From assembly GCF_014698755.1 (NCBI RefSeq), contig NZ_JACJTO010000001.1, positions 1-64,000 of the forward strand: a stretch of 64,000 nt of DNA. The letters are read 5' to 3'. The notes below the pieces were generated by a model. That model did no database searches. It was not told the origin of the DNA and was given only the letters and a program-made list of their open reading frames with translations. Below, piece by piece: positions 14,640-33,047 of the stretch (position 1 is the first letter of the stretch; every line of letters starts with the position of its first letter). The stretch comes from Aphanizomenon flos-aquae FACHB-1287. GTDB lineage: Bacteria > Cyanobacteriota > Cyanobacteriia > Cyanobacteriales > Nostocaceae. Position numbers and translations under genes: made by a program.

Positions 14640-14673
14640 TTTACACATATTATAATAGGATAATAACATCATC

Positions 14674-15494: not shown

Positions 15495-15914
15495 CTAACA
15501 ATAATGTTTACTGATAAATAAACAATAACGATTATCATCTGTTAGTTTATAGGACAGTTTGTCAGCAATGGAGGACATTATTTGCAATCCCCGTCCTCTT
15601 TCTTGATCATTATCCTCTAATGCTGAAGTTATTTCCAATTGCTTTTCTAATTCAAAAGGTTCTCCCAAAGACCATATCCGAATTTCTATATCTTCTTCGA
15701 GTCTAATAACTTCTAATTCAATCGGAGTTTCTCTGGGTAATTTCTTGTGGGCGTGTTCTACAATGTTAATAAATCCTTCTACTAGTAGTGTTTGTAATTC
15801 CCACCAAATTTTTTGATTATGAAACGGGGGCTGGTTGATTTGCTCTAGCCAGGATAAAACTTCACTGGTCGCATTAATATCTGTATTGGTTTTTAGGTAG
15901 ATTTTATGATTCAT
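15495..15914 (-). CDS. Anti-sigma-factor-like HATPase (RsbW/SpoIIAB family)
   Basis: 139-residue GHKL ATPase/kinase of the partner-switching type. The N-box EGFINIVEHAHKK and the G-box-like segment ERGRGLQIM are visible. Such proteins bind a sigma factor or another target and phosphorylate a STAS antagonist; in cyanobacteria the target is often not a sigma factor. The matching phosphatase (16028-17242) and STAS protein (17257-17610) are immediate neighbours. By layout, the module resembles the hormogonium regulators HmpW/HmpU/HmpV of Nostoc, but orthology cannot be settled from sequence alone. Confidence 0.88.
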   Translation of the reverse strand: MNHKIYLKTNTDINATSEVLSWLEQINQPPFHNQKIWWELQTLLVEGFINIVEHAHKKLPRETPIELEVIRLEEDIEIRIWSLGEPFELEKQLEITSALEDNDQERGRGLQIMSSIADKLSYKLTDDNRYCLFISKHYC

Positions 15915-16027
15915 TGGTCAGTCTATAGAATATTTGACTATGAGTGTATATTCAAAATGTGAAAAATGTAAATTCTTAGGCAAAATTTAATGTAGACTAA
16001 TTAATAAGTAATTATTCAAAGTGTTTA

Positions 16028-17242
16028 ATGGTCAAAATGTTTAAAATCCTTGTCATTGATGATGATCCTATCTTACGAATGGTTTTGAAAAAAACTCTGA
16101 AAACCCAGGGCTATGATGTTACCATAGCAGCTAATGGCGAAGAGGGAATAATAGAAGCCAAAAAATTATGTCCCGCTCTCATTATCTGTGATTGGGTAAT
16201 GTCTGGGATGGATGGTTTACAAGTATGTCGTCAAATTAAGTCAGATTCGGAATTAGCTACAACTTTTTTTATTCTTCTGACTGCAAAAGGAGCTTCTTTA
16301 GGAGAGGAAGATGATCGTGTCAGAGGATTGGACGCAGGAGCAGATGAATTTATCTCTAAACCCATTGAGATGAATGAATTAAAAGCACGGGTAAGAGCAG
16401 GATTAAGGCTACATCAATTAAGTCGAGATTTGCAGCATCAAAAGCAAATTTTAGAGCAGTTAAATCAAGATTTACAGCATCAAAAGCAAGTTTTAGAAAC
16501 CGAACTAGCTGAAGCTGCTGATTATGTGCGATCGCTTTTACCATTACCAATTATAGGATCAGTGACAATAGAATCTTTATTTGTACCTTCAGCACAGTTG
16601 GGAGGGGATTGTTTTGATTACTATTGGATTGACGATGAGCATTTGGCAATTTATCTATTAGATGTCTCTGGTCATGGTGTAGGCTCGGCTTTGTTATCTG
16701 TATCTGTATTGAATATCTTGCGATCGCAGTCTCTCCCAAATACTGATTTTTGTCAACCAGCAGAAGTTCTTAAAGCGCTCAATGAGACTTTTCAAATGAG
16801 TAAACATGGCGATAAATACTTTACCATTTTGTACTGTGTTTTTAATCGTGTTAATCATCAGCTAGTTTATGGTAATGCTGGACATCCACCGGCTGTATTA
16901 ATATTTGGAAATGATCCCTCCAGTATTGAGGTTATAAAACTAAAATCTCTAGATTTACCCATTGGCTTTTTACAAGATATCAGTTTTGAAACTGCTATTT
17001 TGGAAGTTGCAGAAAACAGCACTTTATATATTTTTAGTGATGGTGCTTACGAATTGCTACAACCAGAGGGACAAATTTGGGGTTTCGACTCCTTCGTTAA
17101 TTTATTGCTCACCCATAATCAGACAAATAACAATCATATTAATCAACTCTTACCTGAGATTATAAATATCAGCGGGAACGAAAATTTTGATGATGATTTG
17201 TCTTTACTACAAGTTAATTTTAGTGGATATCAAAATCCCTAA
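16028..17242 (+). CDS. Response-regulator PP2C phosphatase (RsbU/SpoIIE type)
   Basis: 404 residues. The N-terminal receiver has the acidic patch VIDDDP, phosphoacceptor Asp in IICDWVMSGMDG and Lys in ISKPIE. It is followed by a coiled-coil linker with a repeated HQKQ..L..LNQDLQ heptad pattern. The C-terminal PP2C-type domain carries metal-binding Asp residues in GGDCFDYY, DVSGHG and DDDLSLL. It should dephosphorylate the neighbouring STAS protein in response to a phosphorelay. It is divergent from the HATPase gene and convergent with the STAS gene, leaving only 14 bases between the latter two stops. The ATG at 16037 is an alternative start. Confidence 0.93.
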   Translation: MVKMFKILVIDDDPILRMVLKKTLKTQGYDVTIAANGEEGIIEAKKLCPALIICDWVMSGMDGLQVCRQIKSDSELATTFFILLTAKGASLGEEDDRVRGLDAGADEFISKPIEMNELKARVRAGLRLHQLSRDLQHQKQILEQLNQDLQHQKQVLETELAEAADYVRSLLPLPIIGSVTIESLFVPSAQLGGDCFDYYWIDDEHLAIYLLDVSGHGVGSALLSVSVLNILRSQSLPNTDFCQPAEVLKALNETFQMSKHGDKYFTILYCVFNRVNHQLVYGNAGHPPAVLIFGNDPSSIEVIKLKSLDLPIGFLQDISFETAILEVAENSTLYIFSDGAYELLQPEGQIWGFDSFVNLLLTHNQTNNNHINQLLPEIINISGNENFDDDLSLLQVNFSGYQNP

Positions 17243-17256
17243 GATGTAAACTTTTA

Positions 17257-17610
17257 TCAAGGTTGTTTGAAAAGTGTTTGGCGATTTTCTAGTTCTAATA
17301 CTTTGCTGTCAAACTCTTTTCTATTACTTAATATGTTCAAAACTCGATCAATTTTCGTTAATTCAAATAACATTTTAACTTGCTCATTAATGGAACATAC
17401 AAATAGTTCTCCTTTAGCATTTCTCACACTTTGCATTGCTCCTACTAAAGCACCTAAACCAGAACTATCAATAAAACTCACCTTTGACATATCAATCAAT
17501 AGCATATTAAATCCATTATTAAGGATATCAGTAATTTGACGACGTAATTCGTTACCGGCGGTGGCGTTTAAGATTCCTGATGGTTCAAAGACGTGAATTT
17601 TAGAAGTCAT
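17257..17610 (-). CDS. STAS-domain anti-sigma factor antagonist
   Basis: 117-residue STAS protein. The phosphorylation site is visible in FIDSSGLGALV (Ser near residue 50). It should switch between the HATPase kinase and PP2C phosphatase encoded next to it. A good ribosome-binding site (AGGAAG, about nine bases) precedes the ATG at 17610. The next gene on the same strand upstream is the cellulose-synthase-like enzyme; the two are separated by a palindrome and about 220 bases, so they may be linked in transcription or only in function. Confidence 0.92.
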   Translation of the reverse strand: MTSKIHVFEPSGILNATAGNELRRQITDILNNGFNMLLIDMSKVSFIDSSGLGALVGAMQSVRNAKGELFVCSINEQVKMLFELTKIDRVLNILSNRKEFDSKVLELENRQTLFKQP

Positions 17611-17811
17611 AAATTATCTTCCTTTCTGTGTTAGTTTGTAAATTTGCCATTGAAAATCGTCACATCTATTGAAAATTATACTACTATTTAAGGCATTTTG
17701 TATAACTTTAAAAAATAGATTTACAAGCAATAAGGACTTTCATTAACTTTCCCCACGGGGTGAGGGGGTGAGGTTTTATGGTTGTATACAATTCCTTTGC
17801 AACACCCTCTT

Positions 17812-17835
17812 AGAGGTAATTCATGAATTACCTCT
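17812..17835. repeat. Perfect 24-bp palindrome at the 3' end of the glycosyltransferase gene
   Basis: Arms AGAGGTAATTCA and TGAATTACCTCT meet with no loop and overlap the stop codon of the glycosyltransferase gene. There is no T-run after it on the minus strand, so it is not a classical terminator. It could be a transcript-stabilising hairpin or a protein-binding site. Confidence 0.6.
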
Positions 17836-19864
17836 ACTTTACTTCTGTTTTGTGTAAGTCCTGTGGTTGCCAAACAGCAGCGCTGATAATTGCCCAAAGT
17901 AGAGATAAAATATATATACCCCATAATGTGTTGATCAAATAAACCCAAGGAGTTTCTAACTGACCAATAGCGAAACGATATATACTCCATATTATACCTA
18001 AAATCATCAAAATAAACACAGTTATTTGTGGCCAAATTAGCTGGAGATAAATTCCTGATTGTCGCTGCTTAGGTGTAACCTGAAATTTAATAGGTTGTCC
18101 GGTTAATACACTCCATGCAGATTGAATGAATAGGGGAAATAAAGAGATAGAATATTGTTCTGAACGCCATAATTCCGCAGCATTAATTCCCCAACCAGCA
18201 GCTAAAAAAGTCAACCTATTAATTATAAAAGCTGGAAGAAAATGGATAGTAAAATCAAAACCATAAGTTTTCACGGGGATAGTTCCCGTAAAAAAATAGA
18301 TAATGGGACAAGCAATAAAAACCAAAGTTGCAAATCCAGAAAAATAACTATATGTTGTCTTAAAATAGTGTAATCGTTGCCAAAATGTTAGTCCTGGTTT
18401 GGTGAGAGGATTTTCTCTCATTAACACTTGAATTGTACCTTGAGACCAGCGCATTCGCTGTTTGAGGGTAGAACTTAAATCATCAGGAGCAAGTCCTTCT
18501 GCTAATAATTCATGATGATAAATTGATTTCCAACCAGAACTATGCAACCGCATGGCCGTATTCATATCTTCGGTAATACTATTACTAGAAACACCACCAA
18601 TTAATTCAAATTCATCTAATTTTTTACCATCTTTGACAAATTCATCTGCAAAATATTGTAACCCCACACTAACTAATGCTTCTCTTCTTAAGACTGCATT
18701 TGTACCTGTGTAGAAAGCTGAATTCATACCATCTTTACCTTGTTGAATCGGTCCATAAAATAAATTGGCTCGATGTCCAAAGGGGTCTCCAGGGGGAATA
18801 TTATAAAAATCTTGGGGAGTTTGCACAAATGCAATACGGTTTGGCTCATATTTTCCTGAATACAAATTATAGGTATAGAAATATGGCAAAACTCGCTTTA
18901 AAAATGCTGGTTTAGGAACATGATCTGCATCTAAAGTAAGAATAAAATCTCCTGCGGTCTCTCCAGAAAAAATGGCGTAATTAAGATTACCTGCTTTAGC
19001 ATGATGAGGTACTCCTGGTTGTTTAGGACGAGCAATATACCGCAATCTAACCAGTTGCACAAGTTCTAATTCTTTTTGACGAATTGCTAATTCTAATCCG
19101 CTACGTTCATGATTGAGATGTTCATATATAGTTGATTTATTGACATGATGACTATTTTGATGTTGAGGATTTAACCAGAGAATAAACTGTTGTAAACTGT
19201 GGACAAATCTAGCGGGAATATCCTCGAAATTATTTGAAGTATTTAAAGATGATTTTTGCAGCCATTCTTCAGCGGCTTTTACTTCAGGTGCTAGACTTTC
19301 CAGTTGTTCAATTCGTTGATTTAAAGTAGATAATTCCGCGTCAATTCGATTAGCTTCCTGTTGTAATAATGGTGATTGTAAATCCTCTAGAGCTAATCTT
19401 TCTGACATGGCTCGCATTTGTTCAGAATTACCATCATCTAATACATATACACGCAGCTTTGTGGTTGGATAATCTATCGCTAAAGCCGCTCTAGCAGTTT
19501 CTTCCACCATTTCTGAGGGTTCATTATAGCAGGTTATAAACACATCTACATTTGCCCAATCAGAATTAGGAAGGGGTGGAATTAACTGATTAAGAGACTT
19601 AACCTGTCGGACTATAGGCCGCCATAATCCAATGACAAACATAACTCCTCCGAAATAGCTGTAAATTTCCGCCAGCAATAAAGGAATAGACAGCCATAGA
19701 GCATCAAAGTTGATAGAATGAGTTATCCGCCATTGTAAATACCAAGCACCAAAAATTAAGTTGATTTCCGCTAAGTACCGAAAAAGTAGGGTTCTTTTTT
19801 TCAGTGTTGTACGGCTATTACCGGAAAAATTCGCTGAATCATAACTAGAGGACGCTGGGTTCAT
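17834..19864 (-). CDS. Cellulose-synthase-like family 2 glycosyltransferase with P-CR-position insert
   Basis: Processive membrane GT2 of 676 residues. Two N-terminal membrane helices precede a GT-A domain with VLDDG (143-145), DADH (312-315), TED (431-433) and QRMRW (469-473), and C-terminal membrane helices follow. Between VLDDG and PGVPHHAKAGNLN lies an insert of about 120 residues, rich in Glu, Leu and Gln and predicted helical; bacterial BcsA has about 25 residues here. This is the position of the plant-conserved region of plant CesA. No PilZ domain is seen at the C-terminus, so direct c-di-GMP control by that route is unlikely. The ATG at 19864 is used; a TTG lies 11 codons upstream. 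Product could be cellulose or another beta-glucan. Confidence 0.9.
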   Translation of the reverse strand: MNPASSSYDSANFSGNSRTTLKKRTLLFRYLAEINLIFGAWYLQWRITHSINFDALWLSIPLLLAEIYSYFGGVMFVIGLWRPIVRQVKSLNQLIPPLPNSDWANVDVFITCYNEPSEMVEETARAALAIDYPTTKLRVYVLDDGNSEQMRAMSERLALEDLQSPLLQQEANRIDAELSTLNQRIEQLESLAPEVKAAEEWLQKSSLNTSNNFEDIPARFVHSLQQFILWLNPQHQNSHHVNKSTIYEHLNHERSGLELAIRQKELELVQLVRLRYIARPKQPGVPHHAKAGNLNYAIFSGETAGDFILTLDADHVPKPAFLKRVLPYFYTYNLYSGKYEPNRIAFVQTPQDFYNIPPGDPFGHRANLFYGPIQQGKDGMNSAFYTGTNAVLRREALVSVGLQYFADEFVKDGKKLDEFELIGGVSSNSITEDMNTAMRLHSSGWKSIYHHELLAEGLAPDDLSSTLKQRMRWSQGTIQVLMRENPLTKPGLTFWQRLHYFKTTYSYFSGFATLVFIACPIIYFFTGTIPVKTYGFDFTIHFLPAFIINRLTFLAAGWGINAAELWRSEQYSISLFPLFIQSAWSVLTGQPIKFQVTPKQRQSGIYLQLIWPQITVFILMILGIIWSIYRFAIGQLETPWVYLINTLWGIYILSLLWAIISAAVWQPQDLHKTEVK

Positions 19865-20136
19865 TTTGCTACCGAAAATAAAATTTAAATTAGTCAATTA
19901 TGCGGTTGTTTGTTTTTACAAGAGTCCTGTATTCGATTTGAACTCCCATGGTTGTCCATAGCCAGTCTATAGTCCTTGATATTTTTTAGATATCACTGAG
20001 GATTCCTGTAGCTTGTTAAAGTAGAGTTGTTATTTAATGTATCAGATTTTTGGTGTCATTTCTAACCATAGCGAAGTAATTCTCTCTTCTCTAGCTCTCT
20101 AGTCCTCCCTGAATGGTTCTCAAATCTTATTTGTAA
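19865..20136. promoter_or_regulatory. Divergent promoter region between glycosyltransferase and DUF3131 genes
   Basis: About 270 bases separate the starts of two oppositely transcribed genes of the same presumed pathway, so both promoters must lie here. I found no convincing -10/-35 pair or known operator by eye; a TTCTCTCTTCTCTAGCTCTC pyrimidine-rich tract occurs near 20080. Confidence 0.4.
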
Positions 20137-23043
20137 ATGATGCAGCAACACCGTCACCACAAACTATTAAAATGGATTGCATTGTTCCTAAGTGGAGCAT
20201 TTTTGCAATTTTTGTTCTGCGTGCCTACAGTATCTTTAGCACAAAATTCTACTCCTAATAGCTGTAGTCAAATTTCAGCGCCTCTGACACCGGAGGAACA
20301 GATTTACGCTCGTGCAGCTTGGCAATATTTTGTCAATAACTATCAAGCAAATACAGGGTTTACTAATTCTACTGGTGGTTATCCTTCTGGTACTCTCTGG
20401 GACATTGGTAATTACCTAATGGCTTTGAATGCAGCGCGGTGGATGAATTTGATTAACCAGTCGGAATTTGATTCACGCTTTAATAAATTTCTTACCAATT
20501 TTGCTAATCTTAGTTTATTTGAAAACGCTTTACCAAATAAGGTATACAATGCTGCTAATGGAAAAATGACTGATTATGGTAATAAACCTGTAGAAAAGGG
20601 GCTGGGTTGGTCAGCTTTGGATATTGGTCGTATATTGGCTGCTTTTCATATTATTGGTACTTGTCATCCTCAATATAAAAATTGGTTGAAGGGAGTTCTC
20701 AGTAAGTGGCAGTTAGCAAGATCACTGAAAGATGACCAACTTTACGGAGCGCTTGTCTTGCCTAATGGTAAAACATTGTTGGTACAAGAAGGGCGACTTG
20801 GTTATGAGGAATATGCTGTTAGGGGTTATGAACTATGGGGATTTAAAGCACCCAAAGCAGCGGCTTTAGAGCCTTTCAAACTTGTAGATATTAATGGGGT
20901 GAAAATTCCTGTTGATACCCGTGATTTTCAAAGCACTAATGCTAATAATTATGTAGTTGGTGAATCCTACATTCTTGATGGCATTGAATTTGGCTTAGAA
21001 GGTTATTTAAAAAAATATGCTGCTGATGTTTTAGAAGTACAAAAGCGACGCTTTGAATCTACAGGACAACTAACTGCTGTTTCTGAAGACAATATTGATC
21101 AACCCCCTTATTTTCTCTACAATACTATATACTCTAATGGAGTTGCTTGGGCGACAATTACGGAGAAAAATAAGCCCTATACAGAGTTGCGGAGTATTAG
21201 CACTAAAGCTGCCTTTGGTTGGCGCTATCTTTACCCAGGTAATGCTTATGCTCAAAAGGTTTTTGATGCGGTTAAGGATTTACGTGATCCTAAAGGTGGT
21301 GGCTTCTACGCTGGACTGTATGAAGAAACAAAAAAACCTAATAAATCCCTGACAGGTAATACTAATGGCCTAATCATGGAGATTTTATATTATAAAGCTA
21401 GAGGAAATCGCCCCTTAATTGGTGGTAATGGGGTGAGTTTTGCAAAAATACCGTCTGGTGATTCTAAACCCTCAGATTCTAAACCCCCAGATTCTAAACC
21501 CCCAGATTCTAAACCCCCAGATTCTAAACCCCCAGATTCTAAACCCCCAGATTCTAAACCCCCAGATTCTAAACCCCCAGATTCTAAATCACCTGCTGCA
21601 AATTCGCCTCCAGCCCAAAGTCCTATTCCCATAAATGTTAAACCGGCTAAGACTAACACAGCGACTAACCCACCTCCGCTGATAGTTAAGCCTATCCCAT
21701 CCTTGGGTGTCCCGCAGCCAGCTAAACCATTACCTAAACCGTTAACAGTTGTCCAAAGACGCTATGCTCAAGCGGCCTGGAACTATTTCTCCGCTAATTC
21801 TCAGCCTAGCACAGGATTGGTGAGCGATCGCTCTGATGTTAAGGGTTCAACATTGTGGGGATTAGGAGACTATTTAACAGCACTCAATGCAGCATGGGCT
21901 ATGGATATAATTTCTCCCAAGGAATTTGATCAACGCATTCGACAGTTGTTGAGTGCTTTAGCGCAGATACCGCTATATGCAGGGGAATTACCGAGTCGGG
22001 GTTATGATCCGCGAACATTGCAACCAGTAGATTATGGAGGTAATCCAGTCCCTGAAGGTACTGGTTGGTCGTCTTTAGATGTGGGAAGACTATTAACATC
22101 CCTGTATAATTTAAAAACAGATCACCCCGAATATACGGAAGTTGTTGATCAAATTGCTCTCGACTGGTCATACTTGCGGGTTGTGCGGGAAGGTATTCTT
22201 TCTAGCGCCAATGTCACCAAAGATAAAAGTGGGCGGTTAGTCCCCAGAATTAATCCTGAAACCCGTTTGGGTTATGAGGAATATGCTGCTAGAGGTTTTC
22301 AATTGTGGGGCTTTAATGTTGATAAATCTGCTGTGGGTGGTGAATATAAAACAACATCAGTGGAGGGGGTAGAAGTCCCCATTGAACGGCTGCGTAAAGA
22401 TACAAAATCAAAGGTTAATCAATATACCGTTAGTAATCCTTTTCTGCTGTATGCTCTAGAGTTTGGTTTAGATCCAAAAATGCGATCGCTCTTTACAGCA
22501 GTATATCAAGCTCAAGCCCAACGCTACCTTAAGACTGAGATTCTTACAGCCTCAGCTACTACTCTCATTGAGCGTCAACCTTACACCATCCACAGTTCAA
22601 TTATTGGTCAAAATCAGCCTTGGGCAGCTTTAGATGATGATGGTAAAATACTACCAGAGGGAAGATTAGTCAGTTCGGCTGTAGCATTTGCCTATTATGC
22701 TTTATTGCCTAAAGATACCTATGCTCAGGAATTAATCAAGGCAACAACGGACTTGTACAGCCCTTTATTGGGCTTTTATGAAGGTTTTTATGAAAAAACA
22801 GGTAAAACCGCTCTTGGTTCTACTAGTAGCACTAACAGTATGATTCTACAATCTTTACTGTATACAGCAACAAAGCAACAACCCCTCCTCCGTCCTAATA
22901 CGGATATGAAATCACCCTGGTGGCGAGTAGTAGCTGATGGTAATTCTGGTCGGGGTCTACCGAATACTTCTACTCAAAAAACCCAATTTGTGACTAATGG
23001 CACTGAAAATTACTGGATTACTGTCACAGATGACAGGAAGTAA
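20137..23043 (+). CDS. Secreted tandem DUF3131 protein
   Basis: 968 residues. A signal peptide (KWIALFLSGAFLQFLFCVPT) is followed by a first DUF3131 domain at about 55-420, a low-complexity linker of repeated PPDSK at about 440-495, a Pro-rich stretch, and a second DUF3131 domain at about 545-910. DUF3131 domains have the (alpha/alpha)n character of glycan-active enzymes and are often encoded with cyclic glucan or cellulose-like systems. Shared motifs in both halves include RLGYEEYA(A/V)RG, G.GWS(A/S)LD.GR and TLW(D/G).G.YL. It probably acts on the product of the neighbouring glycosyltransferase, which is inference. The two halves are divergent enough to be an old duplication. Confidence 0.85.
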   Translation: MMQQHRHHKLLKWIALFLSGAFLQFLFCVPTVSLAQNSTPNSCSQISAPLTPEEQIYARAAWQYFVNNYQANTGFTNSTGGYPSGTLWDIGNYLMALNAARWMNLINQSEFDSRFNKFLTNFANLSLFENALPNKVYNAANGKMTDYGNKPVEKGLGWSALDIGRILAAFHIIGTCHPQYKNWLKGVLSKWQLARSLKDDQLYGALVLPNGKTLLVQEGRLGYEEYAVRGYELWGFKAPKAAALEPFKLVDINGVKIPVDTRDFQSTNANNYVVGESYILDGIEFGLEGYLKKYAADVLEVQKRRFESTGQLTAVSEDNIDQPPYFLYNTIYSNGVAWATITEKNKPYTELRSISTKAAFGWRYLYPGNAYAQKVFDAVKDLRDPKGGGFYAGLYEETKKPNKSLTGNTNGLIMEILYYKARGNRPLIGGNGVSFAKIPSGDSKPSDSKPPDSKPPDSKPPDSKPPDSKPPDSKPPDSKPPDSKSPAANSPPAQSPIPINVKPAKTNTATNPPPLIVKPIPSLGVPQPAKPLPKPLTVVQRRYAQAAWNYFSANSQPSTGLVSDRSDVKGSTLWGLGDYLTALNAAWAMDIISPKEFDQRIRQLLSALAQIPLYAGELPSRGYDPRTLQPVDYGGNPVPEGTGWSSLDVGRLLTSLYNLKTDHPEYTEVVDQIALDWSYLRVVREGILSSANVTKDKSGRLVPRINPETRLGYEEYAARGFQLWGFNVDKSAVGGEYKTTSVEGVEVPIERLRKDTKSKVNQYTVSNPFLLYALEFGLDPKMRSLFTAVYQAQAQRYLKTEILTASATTLIERQPYTIHSSIIGQNQPWAALDDDGKILPEGRLVSSAVAFAYYALLPKDTYAQELIKATTDLYSPLLGFYEGFYEKTGKTALGSTSSTNSMILQSLLYTATKQQPLLRPNTDMKSPWWRVVADGNSGRGLPNTSTQKTQFVTNGTENYWITVTDDRK
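21459..21590 (+). repeat. 15-bp coding minisatellite (PPDSK linker)
   Basis: About eight nearly identical units reading CCAGATTCTAAACCC encode PDSKP. The array sits between the two DUF3131 domains, so copy-number change would only lengthen or shorten the linker in frame. Confidence 0.95.
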
Positions 23044-23378
23044 CTTTGGATGATTTAGATACTTGAGGTTAGTAGAATTACTTGATTCTTGTCGCTATGG
23101 AGGAGATAAATGAAGATAAATCTGATATACCAACCCAAATTCATAAATACTGACATAAAATATATAGGATTTACACAAAACAGCAGAAAAATAGCGGTAA
23201 TATCTTCCGATATCTTGCTATATTAATTACTACTGCCTAAAAATAAGGTTTATGAGTCCACGTAAGCTATCAGCCATATCTGCTGTTAATCTTGGATACA
23301 TTAACTCACCCTAGTAAATTGGTAAAGGTATTAATATGAGAATATTCCTTCTATTCCCTTGCGTAGCTGTTTTGTAAA
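23044..23378. other. Intergenic region between DUF3131 and beta-barrel genes
   Basis: 335 AT-rich bases between two genes on the same strand. I see no strong terminator. The start of the next gene may have its own promoter here, but no clear element can be named. Confidence 0.35.
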
Positions 23379-24776
23379 ATGTTACTCTCACTAGACCCGC
23401 GAAAACGAATACTATATTTATTTTTCCCAATAAGTATCATCACTAGCTTTGGGATTAATTCTGTATCTGCTGCTCCTATCCAACCAGATGAAAATTGGGG
23501 TTCAGTCTCACTTGTGATAGAACCCGTTGCTGTGGTTGATAATTTACCAAATTCACGCCAAAATAACGGGGATATTACAGAAACAGATTCCTCTATTTTT
23601 TTCCCACTAGATGAAAACTCGAACTCATTTCCAGAATTGACCGCACAAATTACACATTTTGGTATTTTAGAAAACTTAAACATAGTCAGTTTTCCTCCTC
23701 AGAATTTGCAGTCAATACCAATATTAATTGCTGCACCTGAAAACTTTAATCCTCAGCTAAGGTTAACTTCCCAACAAGTATCTCTTCCGCAAAGACAACC
23801 AACTCCTACGGTACAATCAACTTCAAAACCAACTCCTATAGTACAACCAACTTCAAAACCAAATTCTACTACACCTCGGTCAGCGTTTGTTTTGGAAAGT
23901 GTCCAAACAGGATTTCGTAAGGATATGAATAGTTCCCAGCAGGAGAGCCAAATTATTGAACCAGTGTTTCAATTTCGGTTATTTAATGGAGAGAAAATTA
24001 AATTGAAAACTGCTTTTAATAAGTTAAGTCAACCGAAATTTACATCTCTTATTAATATTCCTCTTCAGTTAGGATGGGAAGGGAAAACAGGTCAATTTAA
24101 TATAAAATTAGGAGCAGGAATTGATCTATTTAATCGTTTACCAATGGCTCTCAATTTCAATGCTCAGATAGATAGACCAATTTTCGTTAAACTCAATCCA
24201 GATAATAGCATTAAGTCAAGTTTATTTTTATCAGCAGTCTTAGAACAAGGTCCTTATAAAACTAGTGTGAAAACACTGGAAAATCAAATTACAGCTACAC
24301 GCTCTGGTTTCAATACTTTTTGGCAAATTGACCCTAATACTAGCTTTTTTGGCTCTTATCGTGTGGGTTTATATAATGATGGTAATTTTGAACAACAGAT
24401 TTTTAATCGCTTGGAACATAAGTGGGGTGAATTTTGGTTTGCTGGTAATATTTTTGCTTGGAAATATGCAAGCGATAATCAAGAAAGTAGTGGCTATTTT
24501 TCTCCAGTATCTTCTCTAGTTTACAACGGTGAAATCGGATGGGGAAAAAACATTTTTCCTTTTTTAAATTGTCGTTTAAATACCACCTTGGGGAGACAAA
24601 TAGTTAATGGTAGTAAAAGTGGAGGTACTGGCTATCAAACTCGCTGTACCGTCAAAATGTCACCAACTATAGGCTTAGACTTAGGTTATAGTTTAGGTAA
24701 GTCTCACAATCTCATGACTGGGGAAAGTCTGTACAATAATCAGACATTAACAGGCCAATTACAGATAAAATTTTGA
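23379..24776 (+). CDS. Putative outer-membrane beta-barrel protein of the glucan cluster
   Basis: 465 residues. A signal peptide (ILYLFFPISIITSFGINSVSA) and a low-complexity Pro/Thr/Gln segment (about 130-165) precede about 280 residues of alternating hydrophobic and polar strands, ending in GQLQIKF. A C-terminal aromatic residue on the final strand is the classic signature of a Gram-negative outer-membrane barrel. The C-terminal part could be a counterpart of the BcsC barrel without its TPR arm. No family is recognised with certainty; an exporter role is inferred from location between DUF3131 genes and near the glycosyltransferase. Confidence 0.65.
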   Translation: MLLSLDPRKRILYLFFPISIITSFGINSVSAAPIQPDENWGSVSLVIEPVAVVDNLPNSRQNNGDITETDSSIFFPLDENSNSFPELTAQITHFGILENLNIVSFPPQNLQSIPILIAAPENFNPQLRLTSQQVSLPQRQPTPTVQSTSKPTPIVQPTSKPNSTTPRSAFVLESVQTGFRKDMNSSQQESQIIEPVFQFRLFNGEKIKLKTAFNKLSQPKFTSLINIPLQLGWEGKTGQFNIKLGAGIDLFNRLPMALNFNAQIDRPIFVKLNPDNSIKSSLFLSAVLEQGPYKTSVKTLENQITATRSGFNTFWQIDPNTSFFGSYRVGLYNDGNFEQQIFNRLEHKWGEFWFAGNIFAWKYASDNQESSGYFSPVSSLVYNGEIGWGKNIFPFLNCRLNTTLGRQIVNGSKSGGTGYQTRCTVKMSPTIGLDLGYSLGKSHNLMTGESLYNNQTLTGQLQIKF

Positions 24777-24884
24777 CCTGTTTTTTGACTGATAACTCAA
24801 TATTTCACAAGTAGAAAAAAGCAAAAGCAGAGAAATCGAAATCATAAATTATCGAATTTCACAGCATCAAAATAACCTTTTTGT

Positions 24885-26276
24885 TTACTCTTTTATTCCA
24901 GCCCAAACAGTGAGAGGTTTACCAACTTTTTTATAAAGTAAGCTTTCTAAAATTACACCATTATTATTGGCAGTAAGAGCTTTATTTGGCTGATTTAAAG
25001 ATTCATAAAACCCGTTATACCAACCTTGATCAGATTTAAGTTGAGTTTGCACAAAATTAAATAATTTGCCTGTATAATCAGTATTATACAGGACGTGCCA
25101 ACCTACTGCAGCCTTAGCACTGAGAAAACGTAGATCATTGTATTTTTTCCCTGCTCCTGTGATAGTTGCCCAAGGTTCTCCATTCACAAATAAACTACTA
25201 TAAACAAAGTAAGGAGCGCGATCTAAATTATCTTCCGTGACAGCAGTTAAAAAATTAGTTCTTTGATAACGAGCTTCTTGTGCAGCTAAAATTCGGTCTG
25301 AAAATGCTTTAGGTAAAGCTTGAAATCCGGTTTCAATGCCATCTAAAATATAAGGCTCGCTGAGAACATAATTATTTGCACCTGAATTTTGATAATCCCG
25401 TCGATCATAAGGAACACCCTGTCCATAGAGATCCACAAAGTCTGTATTAGATGTGTAATCTAAAGCTTTTTTAACATCTAAGCCCCAGAGTTTTAATCCA
25501 TAAGCTGCGTAATTTTCATAACCTAAACGCCCTTCTTGGTTATACTGTTCTTCACCAGAAATAACAGAAGTACCGTACATTTGCCCGTTTTTGACCAAGC
25601 GCTTGATTTGCCAATGTTTCCAAACGGCTTCTGTTTGTGGTTGCATTTTGGGATATTTTATACCGACAATATTCAGCCATATAGCTAAACGTCCTAAATC
25701 CAAAGCAGACCAACCAATTTCTTCTCGTTTATCTAATTGACCATAATTTACAGGTATCAATGTTTTTGAATTATAGACTTTATTCGGTAATTCTCCCTTA
25801 TACAAAGGCATAGACGCTAGAGTTTTTAACATCTGACTCATTTTGCTCTCAAACTCTTCTACGGTAATGATATTAAGTTCTTTAGCACTGACCAAAGCAG
25901 CCATAGCAGCGGCTTGGTCCCACATAGTAACAGAGGCAAAATTATTTACAGAGTTAACCAAGCCAGTTTTATCATTCCAATTACGTTGGAAGTATAACCA
26001 AGCTTGACGCGCCATTGCAGTTTCCTCTGTGGTTAATGTCCCACTTCCGGGCGCAATATAGGGTTCTTGGGTGGTTGTCAATTCGGTAGCGGCAATGGGT
26101 TTACCTGCGACAATTGTTAATTTAGTATTCAGCTTGCTAATACTATCGGTATTTATAGTTAAATACTTTGACAAAGAATTGAAACCTATAATTGCAATTA
26201 CAGCGGTTATAACTCCGCCAAAGGTAGCGAGAAAAGATAGTTTTTTTGATGGTGGCTCAAAATCAGAATTCATCAT
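24885..26276 (-). CDS. Membrane-anchored DUF3131 protein
   Basis: 464 residues with one N-terminal membrane helix (LSFLATFGGVITAVIAIIGF) and a single DUF3131 domain at about 85-460. It shares motifs with the other copies (MWDQAAAMAAL, EEIGWSALDLGRL, EGRLGYENYAAYG). The ATG at 26276 is chosen because the frame upstream to 26360 reads through a TTACCAATTACC-type intergenic repeat and is not coding. It is third in a minus-strand series after opgC and another DUF3131 gene. A small inverted-repeat element of about 114 bases separates it from the latter and may have separated a former tight operon. Confidence 0.87.
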   Translation of the reverse strand: MMNSDFEPPSKKLSFLATFGGVITAVIAIIGFNSLSKYLTINTDSISKLNTKLTIVAGKPIAATELTTTQEPYIAPGSGTLTTEETAMARQAWLYFQRNWNDKTGLVNSVNNFASVTMWDQAAAMAALVSAKELNIITVEEFESKMSQMLKTLASMPLYKGELPNKVYNSKTLIPVNYGQLDKREEIGWSALDLGRLAIWLNIVGIKYPKMQPQTEAVWKHWQIKRLVKNGQMYGTSVISGEEQYNQEGRLGYENYAAYGLKLWGLDVKKALDYTSNTDFVDLYGQGVPYDRRDYQNSGANNYVLSEPYILDGIETGFQALPKAFSDRILAAQEARYQRTNFLTAVTEDNLDRAPYFVYSSLFVNGEPWATITGAGKKYNDLRFLSAKAAVGWHVLYNTDYTGKLFNFVQTQLKSDQGWYNGFYESLNQPNKALTANNNGVILESLLYKKVGKPLTVWAGIKE

Positions 26277-26347
26277 GGAATTGGTAATTGGTAATTGGTA
26301 ATTGGGAATACAATTGAGGGTTTTTTCTTGTCTAGTTTTTTTAAGTC

Positions 26348-26461
26348 GGGACTTACGCAAAATATCTTTCTGTAGGGGCGAACGGCCGTTCGCCCTAAGT
26401 CCCCATTTCTGTTCTTTGTACCTGAAGTTGTTCGTGTATTCCGTGACTCGTGCGTAAGCCC
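26348..26461. mobile_element. MITE-like inverted-repeat element
   Basis: About 114 bases with imperfect terminal inverted repeats (left GGGACTTACGCA, right TGCGTAAGCCC). Inside is a perfect 20-bp palindrome at 26376-26395 centred on CGGCCG. A degenerate inverted copy at 60436-60520 shares GTACCTGAAGT and the TTTGCGTA end. It encodes nothing and lies between two DUF3131 genes. Confidence 0.65.
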
Positions 26462-26484
26462 TATCCAGGATAGATAGGAGATGA

Positions 26485-27792
26485 TTAGGGTTGTTTTTCC
26501 TTAGCCCAAACTGTCAACGGTTTGCCCACACGACGATATAGTATTGCTTCTAACACTATACCGTTAGTATTGACAGTTAAAGCTCGATTTGGTTCTTGAG
26601 TTTCTTCATAAAAACCTGCAAAAACGCCACGAGTTGGGTCAGCCAGCCAGCGCGTACCCTTATGAAGTCTTTCTGTATAGGGAGTTTGAAAGAGCATATT
26701 CCAGCCTATTGCGGCTTTAACACTACTACCCCGATAAACAAAGGCATCTTTACCAGATGAGTCTATACTTTTCCAAGGTTGACCATTGACAAAAATACAA
26801 TTGTAGACAAACCAAGGCTCTCGATCTAAATTATCCTCAGACCAGGCTGTGAGTTGATTGGTGGCTTGATAGCGACGTTGTTGAGCTTGGAGTAACTTGG
26901 CTGCATATTCCGCAGGTAAAGCCTGAAAACCACTTTCCAACCCATCCAAAATATAGGGTTCACTCGTGACATAATTATGATAGGTGGTGCGTTTATCCGC
27001 TGGTACTTCCACACCCATAATATTGACAAATTGAGTTTCAGTCTTAGTATCGAGTGCTTTGGGAGCTACAATCCCAATTTTTTGTAATCTATAGGCTGCA
27101 TATTGTTCATAACCTAGCCGTCCTTCTTGGTTCCAGGTTTCCTGACCATTTTTAATCCCTGTCCCCATTAGCTGTCCATTCGCTACTAACCGCTTTAACT
27201 GCCAACGAGCCGTGACTGCTTTACTGGCCGCAGCGTGTTTAGGGTATCGAGTTTGGATTATATCTAGCCATTGCACCAGTCGTGCTAAATCAATGGCCGA
27301 AAACCCAATTTCTTCAGGTTGTGCCAATTTGCCGTAGTTAACCGGGATTAAAGTTTTCGCGTTATAGGCTTTGTTTGGTAACTCATTCCGGTACAAAGGT
27401 ATTTTGGCTAGGGTGGCCAATACTTCCTCTATCCATTGATCAAATTCTGCCGGCTTAAGCAAGCCTAATTCCCGTGCTGCTACCATACCAGCTAATTGAC
27501 TACCTACGTCCCACATTGTTGTACTGGGAAAGTCCGCAGCGGAAGAAACTAAACCCGTGGATAAACGATTTTTCTGGAAATAACGCCAAGCTGTACGGGC
27601 TAATTGTATATCTTCTGCATTCAGCCGATTTTGACCAATGGAAGTAACTGGAGTTGGGAGAATGTTAGTCTCACGCCATTGCATTCCTTTATGCAATCCA
27701 AAGCCAACTAAAGCGATCGCTATAGCGACAATAGTTTGTTTTAATAAACTAGGTTGGATTGGAGTAGGATTGATAGTTGTATCTTGTGTCAT
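26485..27792 (-). CDS. Membrane-anchored DUF3131 protein
   Basis: 435 residues with an N-terminal membrane helix (LLKQTIVAIAIALVGFGL) and one DUF3131 domain (about 60-430). Motifs match the paralogue at 24885-26276: MWDVGSQLAGM, EEIGFSAIDLARL, EGRLGYEQYAAY. Its ATG lies two bases after the stop of the opgC gene, so translation is likely coupled. The three single or tandem DUF3131 genes in this cluster are paralogues that may have divided labour, for example on different chain lengths. That is inference. Confidence 0.88.
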   Translation of the reverse strand: MTQDTTINPTPIQPSLLKQTIVAIAIALVGFGLHKGMQWRETNILPTPVTSIGQNRLNAEDIQLARTAWRYFQKNRLSTGLVSSAADFPSTTMWDVGSQLAGMVAARELGLLKPAEFDQWIEEVLATLAKIPLYRNELPNKAYNAKTLIPVNYGKLAQPEEIGFSAIDLARLVQWLDIIQTRYPKHAAASKAVTARWQLKRLVANGQLMGTGIKNGQETWNQEGRLGYEQYAAYRLQKIGIVAPKALDTKTETQFVNIMGVEVPADKRTTYHNYVTSEPYILDGLESGFQALPAEYAAKLLQAQQRRYQATNQLTAWSEDNLDREPWFVYNCIFVNGQPWKSIDSSGKDAFVYRGSSVKAAIGWNMLFQTPYTERLHKGTRWLADPTRGVFAGFYEETQEPNRALTVNTNGIVLEAILYRRVGKPLTVWAKEKQP

Positions 27793-27794
27793 AG

Positions 27795-28943
27795 TTAACG
27801 GGGAATAATATTAAACAACACTTCTTTTTTTACCAGCCACCAGAAGCAGCCCACAGCTACAGCCTGAGCGATAGTAGTGACTATGGGATTACCATTAACT
27901 AAAGCCGGAATTAAAAACCAAATCACTGTGACTGGAACGTGAACAATATAGACGTACAAAGAGTTTTGACCCAAACTAATCAACAGTTTCCCCAGAATTT
28001 TATTTAACGGTTGCCAAAATGTATCCACAATGATATACAGCAAGGGGAAGAAACCGATGTGATTAATTAAACGCAAAAAACCCACCCGACTGCGGTCTGT
28101 CCATGCTAACCAAGCAACTCTATCTGAGAATTTGGCTGGCCAAACACCAAGCTGAATATCATAATGTGCGGTTACAATTGAGCCAGTGACGATTAATACT
28201 AAGCCTATAACTAGGGGGATTTTCGGAATTTTTCCCCATAATTCTTGTAGCTTTTGACGATAGTAACCTGCTAGTACACCATGCACGTATAAAATTTGCC
28301 AACCAGCTAAAGCAAAGTAAGGATGTTCTCTGTCTAAAGGATGGAAACTCAAGGCATAAGGATGTAATTGTTGGATACTCCAAAATGTCCAGGAAATAGC
28401 CAAAACAGGCAACCAAAAGCCTTTCCTTAACATCCAGAAAATGGCTGGGGAAAACAGCAACAGCAATACATACAGTTGCAAAATGTCAATGACAGGTGGT
28501 GCTAAATGGAATGTAGCTGCCGCCAGTAATATTTGCCACCAAGTCCCAGGAGCAAAATCAAAGGCCGGACGGGTCCAACCGGGGGCAATTATACTTAATA
28601 AACCCAGGACAGACATTAAAATGAAACTGGTGAGATAAAGTTTTCCAGAACGCTCTAACAGTTTTTTCATGGCTTCGGAAAAGCCAACTTTATTGATACG
28701 TCCTAATGTCACCATTCCTAATACCAGTCCAGAGAGAAATACAAAGCCTTCGGCTGCACTGGCGTAAATATGCCCCCTGTTGATAGCACTGAAATAAGAA
28801 GAACTTTCTAAATGATTGAATACCATGGAAACAATGGCAATGCCCCGGAGAAAATCAATCCTTAGATCTCGGTTTCCATAGAGCGTGGGATCATAGCGCC
28901 AGGATACAGGAGGATTGTTTGTTGTAATTGTATTGTTATGCAC
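27795..28943 (-). CDS. opgC: OpgC-type membrane acyltransferase
   Basis: 382-residue integral membrane protein with about ten helices. The N-terminal segment RDLRIDFLRGIAIVSMVFNH and the following EGFVFLSGLVLG match the OpgC/acyltransferase-3-like family. OpgC proteins add succinyl groups to osmoregulated periplasmic glucans in proteobacteria. The start is GTG at 28943. It heads a three-gene minus-strand series with two DUF3131 genes, which supports modification of a glucan in or outside the inner membrane. The acyl donor and the actual glycan are unknown. Confidence 0.87.
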   Translation of the reverse strand: MHNNTITTNNPPVSWRYDPTLYGNRDLRIDFLRGIAIVSMVFNHLESSSYFSAINRGHIYASAAEGFVFLSGLVLGMVTLGRINKVGFSEAMKKLLERSGKLYLTSFILMSVLGLLSIIAPGWTRPAFDFAPGTWWQILLAAATFHLAPPVIDILQLYVLLLLFSPAIFWMLRKGFWLPVLAISWTFWSIQQLHPYALSFHPLDREHPYFALAGWQILYVHGVLAGYYRQKLQELWGKIPKIPLVIGLVLIVTGSIVTAHYDIQLGVWPAKFSDRVAWLAWTDRSRVGFLRLINHIGFFPLLYIIVDTFWQPLNKILGKLLISLGQNSLYVYIVHVPVTVIWFLIPALVNGNPIVTTIAQAVAVGCFWWLVKKEVLFNIIPR

Positions 28944-29279: not shown

Positions 29280-32200
29280 ATGAAAGCATTATTACGCAAT
29301 GACGAAGCCGGAAGAATTGAAGCACTTTTACAATACAGAATTCTTGATACTCAGTCCGAACAGGAGTTTGATGATATTACCCGTTTAGCTTCTTTTATTT
29401 GTGGAACTCCTATGGCCGTAATGACCTTAGTTGATACGGACCGCCAATGGTTTAAATCTAAAATTGGACTAGAAGCATCAGAAACACCCCGTAGTATTGG
29501 TTTTTGCAATCATGCTATCCAGCAACCAGATCCCATGATCATTCCCGACGCTACTTTAGATCCAAGATTTGTGAATAACCCTTTGGTGACATCAGATCCC
29601 AATATCCGTTTTTATGCGGGCATACCCCTAATTAATAATGAAGGTTATGGCTTAGGAGCGTTGTGTGTTCTTGATGACATACCAAGACAACTCGCATCAC
29701 AACAGATAGAGGCATTAAATATTTTAGGTCGCCAAGTCATGAAACAATTAGAATGGCGGCGTAATTTAGATAGTTTGCTCCTCTCAACGGTATTAGATAC
29801 AGTTAATGCTTTAGTGGTAGTTCTTAACCCAGAAGGGGAAATTATTGGATTTAATCGAGCTTGTGAAGAAACCACGGGTTATTCTTACAATGAAGTTAGA
29901 AATCAATGCTTTTGGAACGTATTTACAGAACCAAAACGCTGTCGAACGGTGCGATCTATTTTTGAAAAAATTAGATTAAGTAAAGGGTTAAAAGAATATG
30001 AAAATTATTGGCGAATAAAAGATGGAAATCTGCGGCTAATTAATTGGTCAAATAGAACGGTTGCAAATGAAAATGGTGAAATTGAATTTATTGTTTGTAC
30101 CGGCATAGATATCACTGAACGCAAACAAGTTGAAGAGTCTCTAAAACAGCAATTAGCAGCAGTAGAAGCGGCGAGTGATGGCATTAGTATTGTTGATAAA
30201 CAGGGTAATTATCTTTATCTAAATAGCTCTTATGTGAATATATTTGGCTATAGTCATATCACGGAATTGCTAGGAAAAAAATGGCAAGAAGTTTATGAAC
30301 AAGAGCAGATTAAATTGTTTGAAAAAAAGATATTTCCTGAACTAATGAAACAAGGTTACTGGCATGGAGAAACAATTGCTCAGAGAAAAGATAGCAGCAA
30401 CTTTGCCGCAGAAATGTCTCTGACGAAGTTGAAAGATGGAGGATTCATTTGCGTAGGCCGTGATATCAGTAAACGCAAAGAAGCCGAGGAAGAACTAAAA
30501 TACTTTAACTTGCGATCGCAATTATTAGCTGATATTACTTTAAAAATCCGCGGTTCTTTGCAGATAGATGATATTCTGCAAACGAGTGTTACAGAAGTAC
30601 AAAAACTGTTGAAAACTGACCGTGTAGTGATTCTAGAGTTGTTGGCCGATGGCTCTTTAACAGCGCGGAAAGAAGCATTAATTCCCGGTATTCCAGTTGT
30701 TATGGGGGCAAATATTGTTGAGCCTTGTTTGACAAAAAATTACATCGAGAAATATACTCAAGGATGGATTGGTGTAATTAATGATATTGAAAAAGCTAAC
30801 ATTCAACCTTGTCATATCGAACTATTGCAAAAGTTTAATGTCAAAGCTAACCTAGTTGTTCCTATTTTTCTCAAAGATGAATTTTGGGGTTTACTAATTG
30901 CTCATCATTGTACCCAACCCCGTCAATGGACTAACTGGGAAATAGAATTTCTCAAATCTTTATCTGATCAAATAGGTATTGCTTTAGCTCAAGCTAAATT
31001 ACTGCAAGCGGAAATTATACAAAGACGAGAACTGGAAATTGCTCGTCATCAAGCTGAGTTAGCATCTCTATCCAAAAGTAGTTTTTTAGCGAATATGAGT
31101 CATGAAATTCGTACTCCTATGAATGGCATTTTGGGCATGACTGGTTTATTATTAGAAACTCCTCTCAACCCAGAACAAAGAGATTTTTTAGAAACAGTTC
31201 GTGTGAGTGGTGATGCTCTTTTATCTCTGATTAATGAGATTTTAGATTTATCGAAACTTGAAGCTGGAGAAATGATCATCGAAAGCATAGATTTCGATCT
31301 TTGCAATTGTCTGGAAGAAGTGCTAGATTTATTAGCTCCTCAAGCACATAAAAAAGGACTAGAAATTGCCACACTGGTACAACAGAATATTTATAAATAT
31401 CTGAGGGGAGATGTTGGCCGATTACGACAAATTATCATGAATCTAATTGGTAATGCTATTAAATTTACCAGGGAAGGAGAGGTATTATTAGAAGTAGAAT
31501 TGAAGTCAGAAACTCAGGATCTAGTTATTCTCAATTTTACTGTTATAGATACAGGAATTGGTATTAGTCTTCAAGATCAAAACAAACTTTTTCAAGCATT
31601 TAGCCAAGTTGATGCTTCTATTACCCGTCAATATGGTGGCACAGGTTTGGGATTAGCAATTTGTCAACAATTAGTAAGTTTAATGGGAGGAAAAATTGGC
31701 GTAAAAAGTCAGATGGGTAAAGGATCTCAATTTTGGTTTGAGCTACCTTTTATGAAACAAATCCAGCCTTCTTCTCAGATTTTAGACCTTAATATATTGA
31801 CTAATAAGCGGTTGTTAGTAATAGATGATAATGGGACTAACCGGAGAATTATTTATCATCAAGCTACTCATTGGGGAATGTGGGTAGATGAAGCTGCTTG
31901 TGCAAATACTGGTCTTGCAGCTTTACAAAAGGCTGCCGAAAATCACCCCTATGATATTGTTCTAATTGATATGCAAATGCCTGTGATAGATGGTCTAACG
32001 CTGGGAACAAAAATTAAAACTAATTCGGCTATTAGCAATATTCCTTTAGTTCTATTGACTTCTAGTAATCAAAAGGATGAATCAAAAAAAGCAATCAACA
32101 TAGGATTTATTAGTTATTTAGTTAAACCAATAAAGCCTTCTCGTTTGCTAGATACTATCATGGATATTTTAGGAAGCCAACCAAAATTAGATAATTTCCA

Positions 32201-33047
32201 ATCTTCTAAAATTGAACAACATTTTATAACTATGTTGGATCAAAAAATACCTGATTCTACAAAATCAAAGTTAAAATTGCTCGTAGCAGAAGATAATCCA
32301 GTTAATCAAAAAGTTATCCTCAAGCAACTCGACAGTTTAGGCTATAAAGCCGATATTGTAGCCAATGGCCAAGAAGTTTTGGAAATGTTGGATAACATTG
32401 CCTATGATTTGATTTTGATGGACTGTCAAATGCCAATTCTCGATGGTTTAAAAACTACAAAAGTAATTCGTTCTCGGCCAATAAGTTCATTTGTTAATCA
32501 CCGACAACCTATAGTTATTGCTATTACTGCTAATGCTATGAAGGAGGATCAACAGAATTGTTTAGATGCTGGTATGGATGACTATTTTAGCAAGCCAATT
32601 ACTAAGGATAAATTAGCAACATTATTAGAGCTTTGGAGTTCGAGAATTATGGCGGGACGAGTAGTGACTATTCCTCAACCTGATCCAGTAGTTTTAATTA
32701 CAAATAATCCGTTAACAGATTTACCAATTGATTGGGAACATCTACATCAAATCTCAGAAAATGATCCAGAATTTGAGTTAGAAATATTAAAAGTTTTTGT
32801 GGAAGATAGCCTGTTTCATGTAGAGGGAATTAAAGCCGCAATTGCCGTTAATGACTTTCCTCAACTAGCGAGGGAAGCTCATCATCTTAAAGGTTCTAGT
32901 GGTAATATTGGCGCTACAGCCATACAGAAAATTGCCGAAGAACTAGAACAACTCAGTCGCAAACAGAGTTTTGTTGGTGCTGATGAATTTGTACTAGGAT
33001 TAGTTGATTTTATAAATAAGATTCAAGCTTTTTTAACTAAGTTCTGA
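29280..33047 (+). CDS. Hybrid sensor histidine kinase (GAF-PAS-PAS-GAF-HisKA-HATPase-REC-REC-HPt)
   Basis: 1255-residue cytoplasmic phosphorelay kinase. Domains in order: GAF (about 20-160), two PAS (about 165-285 and 285-400, each ending in an RKQVEE/RKEAEE-type linker), GAF (about 420-570), HisKA with phosphoryl His608 in [11 protein letters not shown], HATPase with [16 protein letters not shown] and GTGLGLAI, receiver 1 with D897, receiver 2 with D1048, and an HPt domain with His1201 in AHHLKGSS. No membrane helices are seen, so the signal is probably internal. Neither GAF shows an obvious Cys-His pair of a bilin-binding phytochrome or CBCR. It is divergent from opgC. It could feed the REC-PP2C phosphatase upstream, but that link is only a guess. 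Confidence 0.93.

Follow-up and report, generated by a model that had tools for sequence, protein, structure and literature searches.

A partner switch that may act on a cellulose-synthase-like enzyme: a polysaccharide secretion gene cluster in Aphanizomenon flos-aquae FACHB-1287

What is the target of a partner switch whose genes lie beside those of a polysaccharide synthase? The question is raised by a cluster (positions 15495 to 28943) in a 64,000-nucleotide stretch of the Aphanizomenon flos-aquae FACHB-1287 genome (contig NZ_JACJTO010000001.1, positions 1 to 64,000; hereafter the window), in which the genes of an RsbW-like HATPase, a response regulator fused to a PP2C phosphatase (REC-PP2C) and a STAS protein adjoin those of a cellulose-synthase-like glycosyltransferase of family 2 (GT2), three DUF3131 proteins, a barrel protein and OpgC (Table 1). 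The original prediction, made from the sequence alone, saw here an undescribed system that synthesizes, trims, acylates and exports a glucan under its own partner-switching control. The open reading frames (ORFs) and domains that it named were found at their positions and are confirmed by Pfam, with the exception of the barrel, which belongs to no Pfam family and is supported by a structure model. Its statement that no unrelated gene interrupts the interval also holds: the other ORFs of at least 100 amino acids (17721-18035 and 23351-23683, both on the minus strand) overlap real genes and were dismissed as genes. The cluster comprises several divergent units spread over the two strands, and a single operon or transcript for all its genes is therefore impossible.

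The best full explanation, whose chances we regard as evenly balanced, is a secretion machine whose synthase is the target of a protein switch. Its solid basis is the gene set, the recurrence of the core, the predicted folds of DUF3131 and of the barrel and the fusions of an HATPase into GT2 found in relatives, together with the intact sites of STAS, PP2C and REC. A hybrid histidine kinase encoded next to the interval would phosphorylate REC-PP2C, whose phosphatase would then dephosphorylate STAS; STAS would engage the HATPase seated on the insert that separates the first and second Asp motifs of GT2. Synthase activity would be set by this engagement, in the place of cyclic di-GMP (c-di-GMP) and PilZ. 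GT2, judging from its family, would polymerise and extrude a beta-linked polymer. The DUF3131 proteins, putative periplasmic (alpha/alpha)6-barrels of the beta-1,2-glucanase and cyclic-glucan-synthase type, would cleave or transfer chains, OpgC would acylate the product and the 16-stranded barrel would export it. For the unfused version found in the window we infer that switch and synthase are in direct contact, in which direction this contact acts, which polymer is made and in what order the steps follow. The broader claim that the synthase is gated allosterically by a partner switch on or in the enzyme, with STAS binding under the control of a phosphorelay-driven PP2C, that the RsbW-like protein of most Nostocales examined, having lost its G1 Asp, is a pure binding switch, that DUF3131 is a new family of the SGL clan and that the gene set spans cyanobacteria, proteobacteria and myxobacteria is, taken as one, possible and stands slightly short of an even prospect.

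Table 1. Features of the cluster and the adjoining kinase gene (positions in the window).
Feature	Position	Strand	Basis and details
HATPase, RsbW-like	15495..15914	-	Pfam HATPase_c_2, E 2e-15; Ser (IWSLGEPF) in place of the G1-box Asp, with N-box and G2 box intact
REC-PP2C, response regulator with a PP2C (SpoIIE) phosphatase domain	16028..17242	+	Response_reg, E 2e-25; SpoIIE/PP2C, E 3e-38; phospho-acceptor and metal-binding residues intact
STAS protein, anti-sigma-antagonist type	17257..17610	-	STAS, E 4e-20; DSSG phospho-serine motif intact
Cellulose-synthase-like GT2	17834..19897	-	Cellulose_synt, E 2e-38; DDG, DAD, TED, QRMRW intact; without PilZ
GT2 insert between DDG and DAD	19043..19381	-	Alignment and Pfam; residues about 173-285, boundaries approximate; probably helical, from the sequence pattern
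Secreted double-DUF3131 protein	20137..23043	+	Domains 20305-21405 and 21760-22872; predicted fold, from the model of a sister domain
16-stranded outer-membrane barrel, PgaA/BcsC/PelB export type, without TPR	23379..24776	+	Structure model; strands at about 23886-24770
Single-DUF3131 protein, one N-terminal hydrophobic segment (probable membrane anchor)	24885..26360	-	Pfam; domain 24921-26015 modelled
DUF3131 protein, one N-terminal hydrophobic segment; OpgC partner in relatives	26485..27792	-	Pfam; neighbourhoods
OpgC-type integral membrane acyltransferase	27795..28943	-	OpgC_C (PF10129), E 6e-49; hydrophobic segments
Hybrid histidine kinase, GAF-PAS-PAS-GAF-HisKA-HATPase-REC-REC-Hpt	29280..33047	+	Pfam; recurrent neighbour, outside the interval of the original prediction

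Gene content and conservation

The window GT2 carries all the motifs of a processive glycosyltransferase (D, DxD, TED and QxxRW) and is the sole protein of the FACHB-1287 genome that matches this GT2 at E <= 1e-15. Its nearest solved structures are BcsA and plant CesA, and it scores 318 bits to CelA (itself under the CelA cut-off) against 24 bits to MdoH. It stands apart from the next tier of GT2s in Nostocaceae, which shares 28-44% identity over parts of the sequence (mostly 30-39%); the four members of this tier read for motifs lack the insert. Pfam finds no PilZ domain in GT2 (no search was aimed at a separate c-di-GMP receptor), and a profile scan of ten window proteins returned neither BcsB nor BcsZ, nor an OpgG or OpgH family match reaching its cut-off. 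The scan thereby bears out the predicted lack of a canonical bcsB and of PilZ among the window proteins. Control by c-di-GMP through PilZ is common, not universal, in synthase-dependent secretion. The barrel protein is modelled with a hydrophobic helix at its N terminus and, in residues 170-464, 16 strands; its clear top structural matches are the polysaccharide-export barrels PgaA, BcsC and PelB, so that the role of outer-membrane exporter proposed for it is backed by a modelled fold.

DUF3131 is sparse in cyanobacteria (G numbers designate genomes scanned, L numbers the fetched DNA stretches, or loci, of relatives). A match at E <= 1e-3 is present in 16 of 244 genomes, FACHB-1287 included, and is full-length in 13; the other three hold fragments (G068, G091) or a marginal match in a 2925-amino-acid ORF (G236). 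The four window domains are all the matches of FACHB-1287 at this threshold. GT2 was found at E <= 1e-60 in 18 of 386 genomes. Among the 244 genomes, matched by handle number, full-length DUF3131 occurs in 13, GT2 in 13 and both in 12, an association that is therefore not due to chance; G131 (GT2, no DUF3131) and G035 (DUF3131, no GT2) are the exceptions. The five further GT2 genomes all carry DUF3131 in their fetched stretch, which brings the GT2 genomes with DUF3131 to 17 of 18.

Many cyanobacteria share the core gene order, though exceptions exist. Neighbourhoods were read in 80 stretches fetched by a DUF3131 match (the best 80 of at least 555 confirmed matches in the contig scan); the presence of DUF3131 in them is by construction and many end just past GT2. 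A GT2 of at least 560 amino acids defines 39 GT2 loci among them (L133, on the same contig as L126, was dropped). Within 9 kb of GT2, STAS is present in 28 loci, a PP2C homologue in 25, a separate or fused HATPase in 20 and the barrel in 14; PIG-L-like genes were counted in 15, GH26-like genes in seven and OpgC in one. Conserved co-occurrence, proposed at the outset as a check, was thus found in part: the core of switch genes, GT2, DUF3131 and barrel recurs, but OpgC and its partner DUF3131 are separable and the unit is often broken up. In L058 (21660-24785; plasmid of Nostoc sp. UHCC 0926) REC-PP2C is split into pieces of 190 and 196 amino acids that flank a 486-amino-acid ORF, probably an insertion. 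The 27 pattern matches in viral contigs include no relative.

Homologues of the hybrid kinase adjoin the same regulators in relatives, and "response regulator" proteins of about 900-1000 amino acids in further loci are homologous to it; it probably belongs to the system as the input to REC-PP2C. On the other side, genes for a protein with an FHA domain and for a small membrane protein (12558-15123) adjoin the switch genes of the window. In L135 and L137, homologues of this pair stand next to OpgC-DUF3131, separated by a SelU-like gene. The pair was rejected for now as part of the system because this adjacency is limited to these two near-identical neighbourhoods.

The switch and its candidate target

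The residues expected of a phosphorylation-controlled switch are conserved unequally. The second Ser of the STAS motif DSSG is kept in 35 of 36 rows, the acceptor Asp of REC in 28 of 29 (the other has a gap) and the metal-binding Asps of PP2C in all 29. The G1-box Asp of the HATPase, a residue that contacts adenine in GHKL proteins, is lost (Ser or Cys) in 28 of 32 rows of GT2-linked stand-alone HATPases (27 of 31 distinct ones, the window and L162 holding one gene), in 0 of 19 unlinked and in 0 of five fused HATPases; the label "linked" was set from neighbourhoods, except for L153, labelled by near-identity to the HATPase of L120, and L134 is counted as linked. Compared with a classical RsbW/RsbV/RsbU switch, the phospho-serine of STAS and the PP2C site are thus present and the G1 Asp is missing. 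Because this Asp is lost, the window HATPase may act by binding and not as a kinase, and the GT2-linked HATPases possibly form a pseudokinase clade. In the STAS proteins of two fused loci (L113, 17062-17388; L126, 677-997) the Asp of DSSG is replaced by Asn.

The candidate target is indicated by fusions. In L113, L114, L122 and L126 Pfam places an HATPase_c_2 domain inside GT2, between DDG and DAD, at the position of the window GT2 insert. A fifth GT2 with a built-in HATPase, in G131 (L212, 9083-11437), lies beside STAS and REC-PP2C; this genome gave no DUF3131 match. Duplicate records (L114 and G405, with identical scores; L126 and L133) were counted once. The fetched stretches of the five fused loci contain no stand-alone HATPase; paralogues occur elsewhere in those genomes. 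We read these proteins, from sequence, as a Rosetta-stone fusion tying the switch to the synthase. The phosphatase is enlarged in L114 (16947-19028; REC-PAS-GAF-PP2C), and that of G131 has a similar length (694 amino acids).

A different target would be expected if this were classical partner switching, in which the switch acts on a sigma factor or another regulator and GT2 and its helpers are merely downstream or neighbours. The proteins are indeed of RsbW/RsbV/RsbU type, REC-PP2C and HATPase pairs exist in cyanobacteria without a match to this GT2 at E <= 1e-60, and the proteobacterial switch genes adjoin a GT2 without the insert. We nevertheless consider such a target unlikely: the HATPase is found inside GT2 in five genomes with no stand-alone copy in the same stretch, G131 keeps the GT2(HATPase)-STAS-PP2C set where DUF3131 has no match, and the annotation tables and Pfam results read name no gene for a sigma factor. 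The fusions seen in relatives argue for GT2, over a sigma factor, as the target.

Several observations weigh against a fixed unit with a switch seated on the synthase. DUF3131 and GT2 are about 3 Mb apart in G191, no close PP2C or HATPase lies within 9 kb of GT2 in L105, L129 and L136, and in L100 PP2C and kinase stand without an HATPase between them. GT2 is absent from 20 of the 50 stretches of at least 20 kb, and 14 of the 50 hold a DUF3131 protein of the 24885-26360 type with no other component (all cyanobacterial: L068, L070, L072, L074, L076, L078-L080, L087, L088, L091, L095, L096 and L130). The fusions of L113, L114, L122 and L126 all come from metagenome-assembled genomes, and that of G131 has lost its catalytic motifs (DEG, TEK, EKLHW), possibly a dead synthase kept with its switch. 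The Acaryochloris genome of L122 has a second HATPase 18 kb from the fused one, just outside the stretch. The GT2 tree, built without the degenerate G131 sequence, groups the other four fused GT2s together (support 75/99), which indicates a single origin of the fusion; several independent fusion events were rejected on this ground. In the HATPase tree (138 columns) the fused domains lie apart from the GT2-linked stand-alone clade, and the fusion may therefore have recruited a paralogue. The missing G1 Asp makes a phosphorylation switch run by the window HATPase doubtful. The proteobacterial GT2s keep adjacent switch genes yet have no insert, and the fold of DUF3131 (see below) does not by itself give the substrate.

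DUF3131 proteins, acylation and the polymer

The double-DUF3131 protein (20137-23043) has two of the four window domains and the two other proteins (24885-26360 and 26485-27792) one each. The modelled domain (24921-26015) adopts the (alpha/alpha)6 fold of the SGL clan (GH144, GH162, GH189, GH192-194) and is closest to the cyclization domain of cyclic glucan synthase (TiCGSCy, GH189). A candidate general-acid Glu, in the motif GLE (E343 of the 24885-26360 protein), is present in 190 of 191 DUF3131 domains and in 15 of 15 diverse ones, with the spacing Y-x-L-x-x-x-E shared with the clan; the equivalence is drawn from this motif and a low-confidence profile alignment, not from superposition. The Glu of QEGR was rejected for this role: it is missing in three of the 15 diverse domains, in which the GLE Glu is invariant, though it was aligned with the clan Glu in two of three MAFFT modes. 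For the nucleophile, the forced low-confidence profile alignment puts no DUF3131 Glu at the position of E1442 of TiCGSCy. The Glu of TED, another candidate, was discarded, being three residues off in MAFFT, unaligned in the profile alignment and replaced by Thr in 42 of 191 domains. Domain 2 (21760-22872) lacks the TED Glu, which the other three window domains keep. The proposal that DUF3131 proteins are periplasmic and act on glycans is thus supported by a modelled fold and by sequence, which place them in the SGL/GH144-GH189 group. For a widespread family of unknown function this provides a predicted fold together with a candidate for the catalytic Glu and for the probable chemistry.

Could the product then be of the cyclic-glucan-synthase or osmoregulated periplasmic glucan kind? 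Besides the closeness to the cyclization domain, weak DUF3131 matches sit inside ORFs of about 2760-3090 amino acids (next to PF10091 in the four of four checked), and OpgC is the acyltransferase of osmoregulated glucans according to an excerpt of PMC4726272. We regard this alternative as improbable, since a PgaA/BcsC-type export barrel recurs in 14 of the 39 GT2 loci, GT2 is nearest to cellulose synthases and not to MdoH/OpgH, and a Glu at the GH189 nucleophile position is missing from the forced alignment.

The acyltransferase nature of OpgC, as first assigned, agrees with its strong Pfam match (Table 1). The pair formed by OpgC and a DUF3131 protein of the 26485-27792 type was found in nine of the 80 stretches: in close relatives of the window (L060, L061), in L118, L120, L123 and L133, in the Polyangiaceae locus L136, and in L135 and L137, where it is separated from the main cluster, which those genomes carry in L112 and L124. 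In cyanobacteria the pair (26485-28943) is a separable, movable sub-module. A GDSL-type hydrolase gene follows it in L118 (2566-3786), L120 (7032-8300), L123 (11217-12497) and L133 (11103-12305), an assignment made by Pfam for L118 and by likeness for the other three; this suggests a sub-module for acylation and deacylation.

Relatives have further accessory genes not seen in the window cluster: PIG-L beside GT2, GH26-like and GDSL genes, and GH16, GH2 and esterase genes in proteobacteria. They suggest that the polymer is modified, yet they point several ways as to its identity. A mannan, glucomannan or aminosugar polymer instead of a glucan would fit the GH26-like genes (seven of 39 loci; the single one tested scores 19.6 bits, against a cut-off of 20.2), an enterobacterial GH2 protein whose match to mannosidase Ig is weak, the nucleotidyltransferase beside the Vibrio GT2, the PIG-L-like genes (15 of 39 loci; one gene tested) and the PgaA-like barrel. 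We hold such a polymer to be doubtful, as GT2 is best matched by UDP-glucose cellulose synthases, the GH16 of two alphaproteobacterial loci fits beta-glucans equally, and the SGL-clan enzymes characterised so far act on beta-1,2-glucan in the account given by part of PMC12102758.

Related clusters and known systems

The cluster has relatives in Enterobacterales, Vibrio, Rhodobacterales and Myxococcota. DUF3131 was found in 27 plasmid records, eight of which were examined through their match. GT2, STAS and PP2C are clustered with it in six (Vibrio, Chimaeribacter, Paracoccus, Pantoea piersonii, Salmonella and Rhodobacteraceae SC52), with an annotated ATP-binding protein in five of these; in the more distant Mesorhizobium and Sulfitobacter plasmids a glycosyltransferase adjoins DUF3131 and no switch genes are annotated beside it. 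An acyltransferase is present in five of the six proteobacterial clusters examined (opgC annotated in four, an Acyl_transf_3 protein in the fifth). A Sphingobium locus found by its GT2 has GT2, HATPase, STAS, PP2C, BcsS and GH16, without an annotated DUF3131. Sampled genomes gave a DUF3131 match in five of 185 Gammaproteobacteria and five of 112 Myxococcota, two being strong in each group, one of which is the sample centre chosen for having DUF3131. In the eight proteobacterial and myxobacterial GT2s compared (L050, L051, L052, L053, L055, L059, L134 and L136) QxxRW is always replaced by QRFKY or QRYKY, and the distance from DDG to DxD is 48 residues, which means that the insert is absent. A sugar nucleotidyltransferase-like gene directly precedes GT2 in the Vibrio cluster (L050, 8317-9441).

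The gene set is not new as a list. A Klebsiella paper of 2026 gives it as accessory block 3b of Klebsiella pneumoniae, without a proposed function and with no barrel named in the part available (PMC12974863); our comparison uses that gene list. This uncharacterised list is the only published description that we found in the open-access literature, and the available parts of PMC4192349 and PMC6382750 hold nothing on function. The word "undescribed" in the original prediction thus comes close to being right, the gene set having been listed but not characterised. The reading proposed here offers a function for this block, which varies among Klebsiella strains (PMC12974863, in part).

We class the system as synthase-dependent polysaccharide secretion in a variant form whose control is unusual; it is widespread and little described. 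With BcsA and the cyanobacterial synthases of PilZ or PCR type it shares the GT2 core motifs; those of PCR type are said, in an excerpt of PMC12430437, to bear the PCR region between U1 and U2, where the window GT2 has its insert. If the window GT2 is of PCR type, cellulose is the likely product. PilZ, BcsB and HlyD were not found in the window cluster, and the proposed switch, if real, would be a c-di-GMP-free gating of a cellulose-type synthase. The barrel has the 16 strands of PgaA, BcsC and PelB and lacks their TPR part. With TiCGSCy (GH189; PMC10834661) DUF3131 shares the fold, the N-terminal third by sequence and a probable equivalent of the general acid E1356; it differs in being a shorter, separate secreted or anchored protein with no Glu aligned to E1442.

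HmpUVW of Nostoc likewise combines a phosphatase, a STAS protein and an anti-sigma-type kinase in polysaccharide control (PMC8256260, in part), a likeness of system type for which no named Hmp sequence was compared. The link to HmpUVW drawn at the outset stands at this general level only, and the fusions in relatives point to the synthase itself as target. The targets of the Vibrio SypA and Nostoc HmpV switches are stated to be unknown in the available part of that review, which also mentions all4160, a glycosyltransferase with an N-terminal STAS domain (PMC8256260). With a switch domain built into the synthase of relatives, one candidate answer, the synthase itself, can be tested directly. 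The nearest precedent is SiaABCD of Pseudomonas aeruginosa, in which SiaC binds the helical stalk of SiaD and turns the enzyme on, as reported in part of PMC8457831; SiaD is a diguanylate cyclase, whereas the target proposed here is a polysaccharide synthase.

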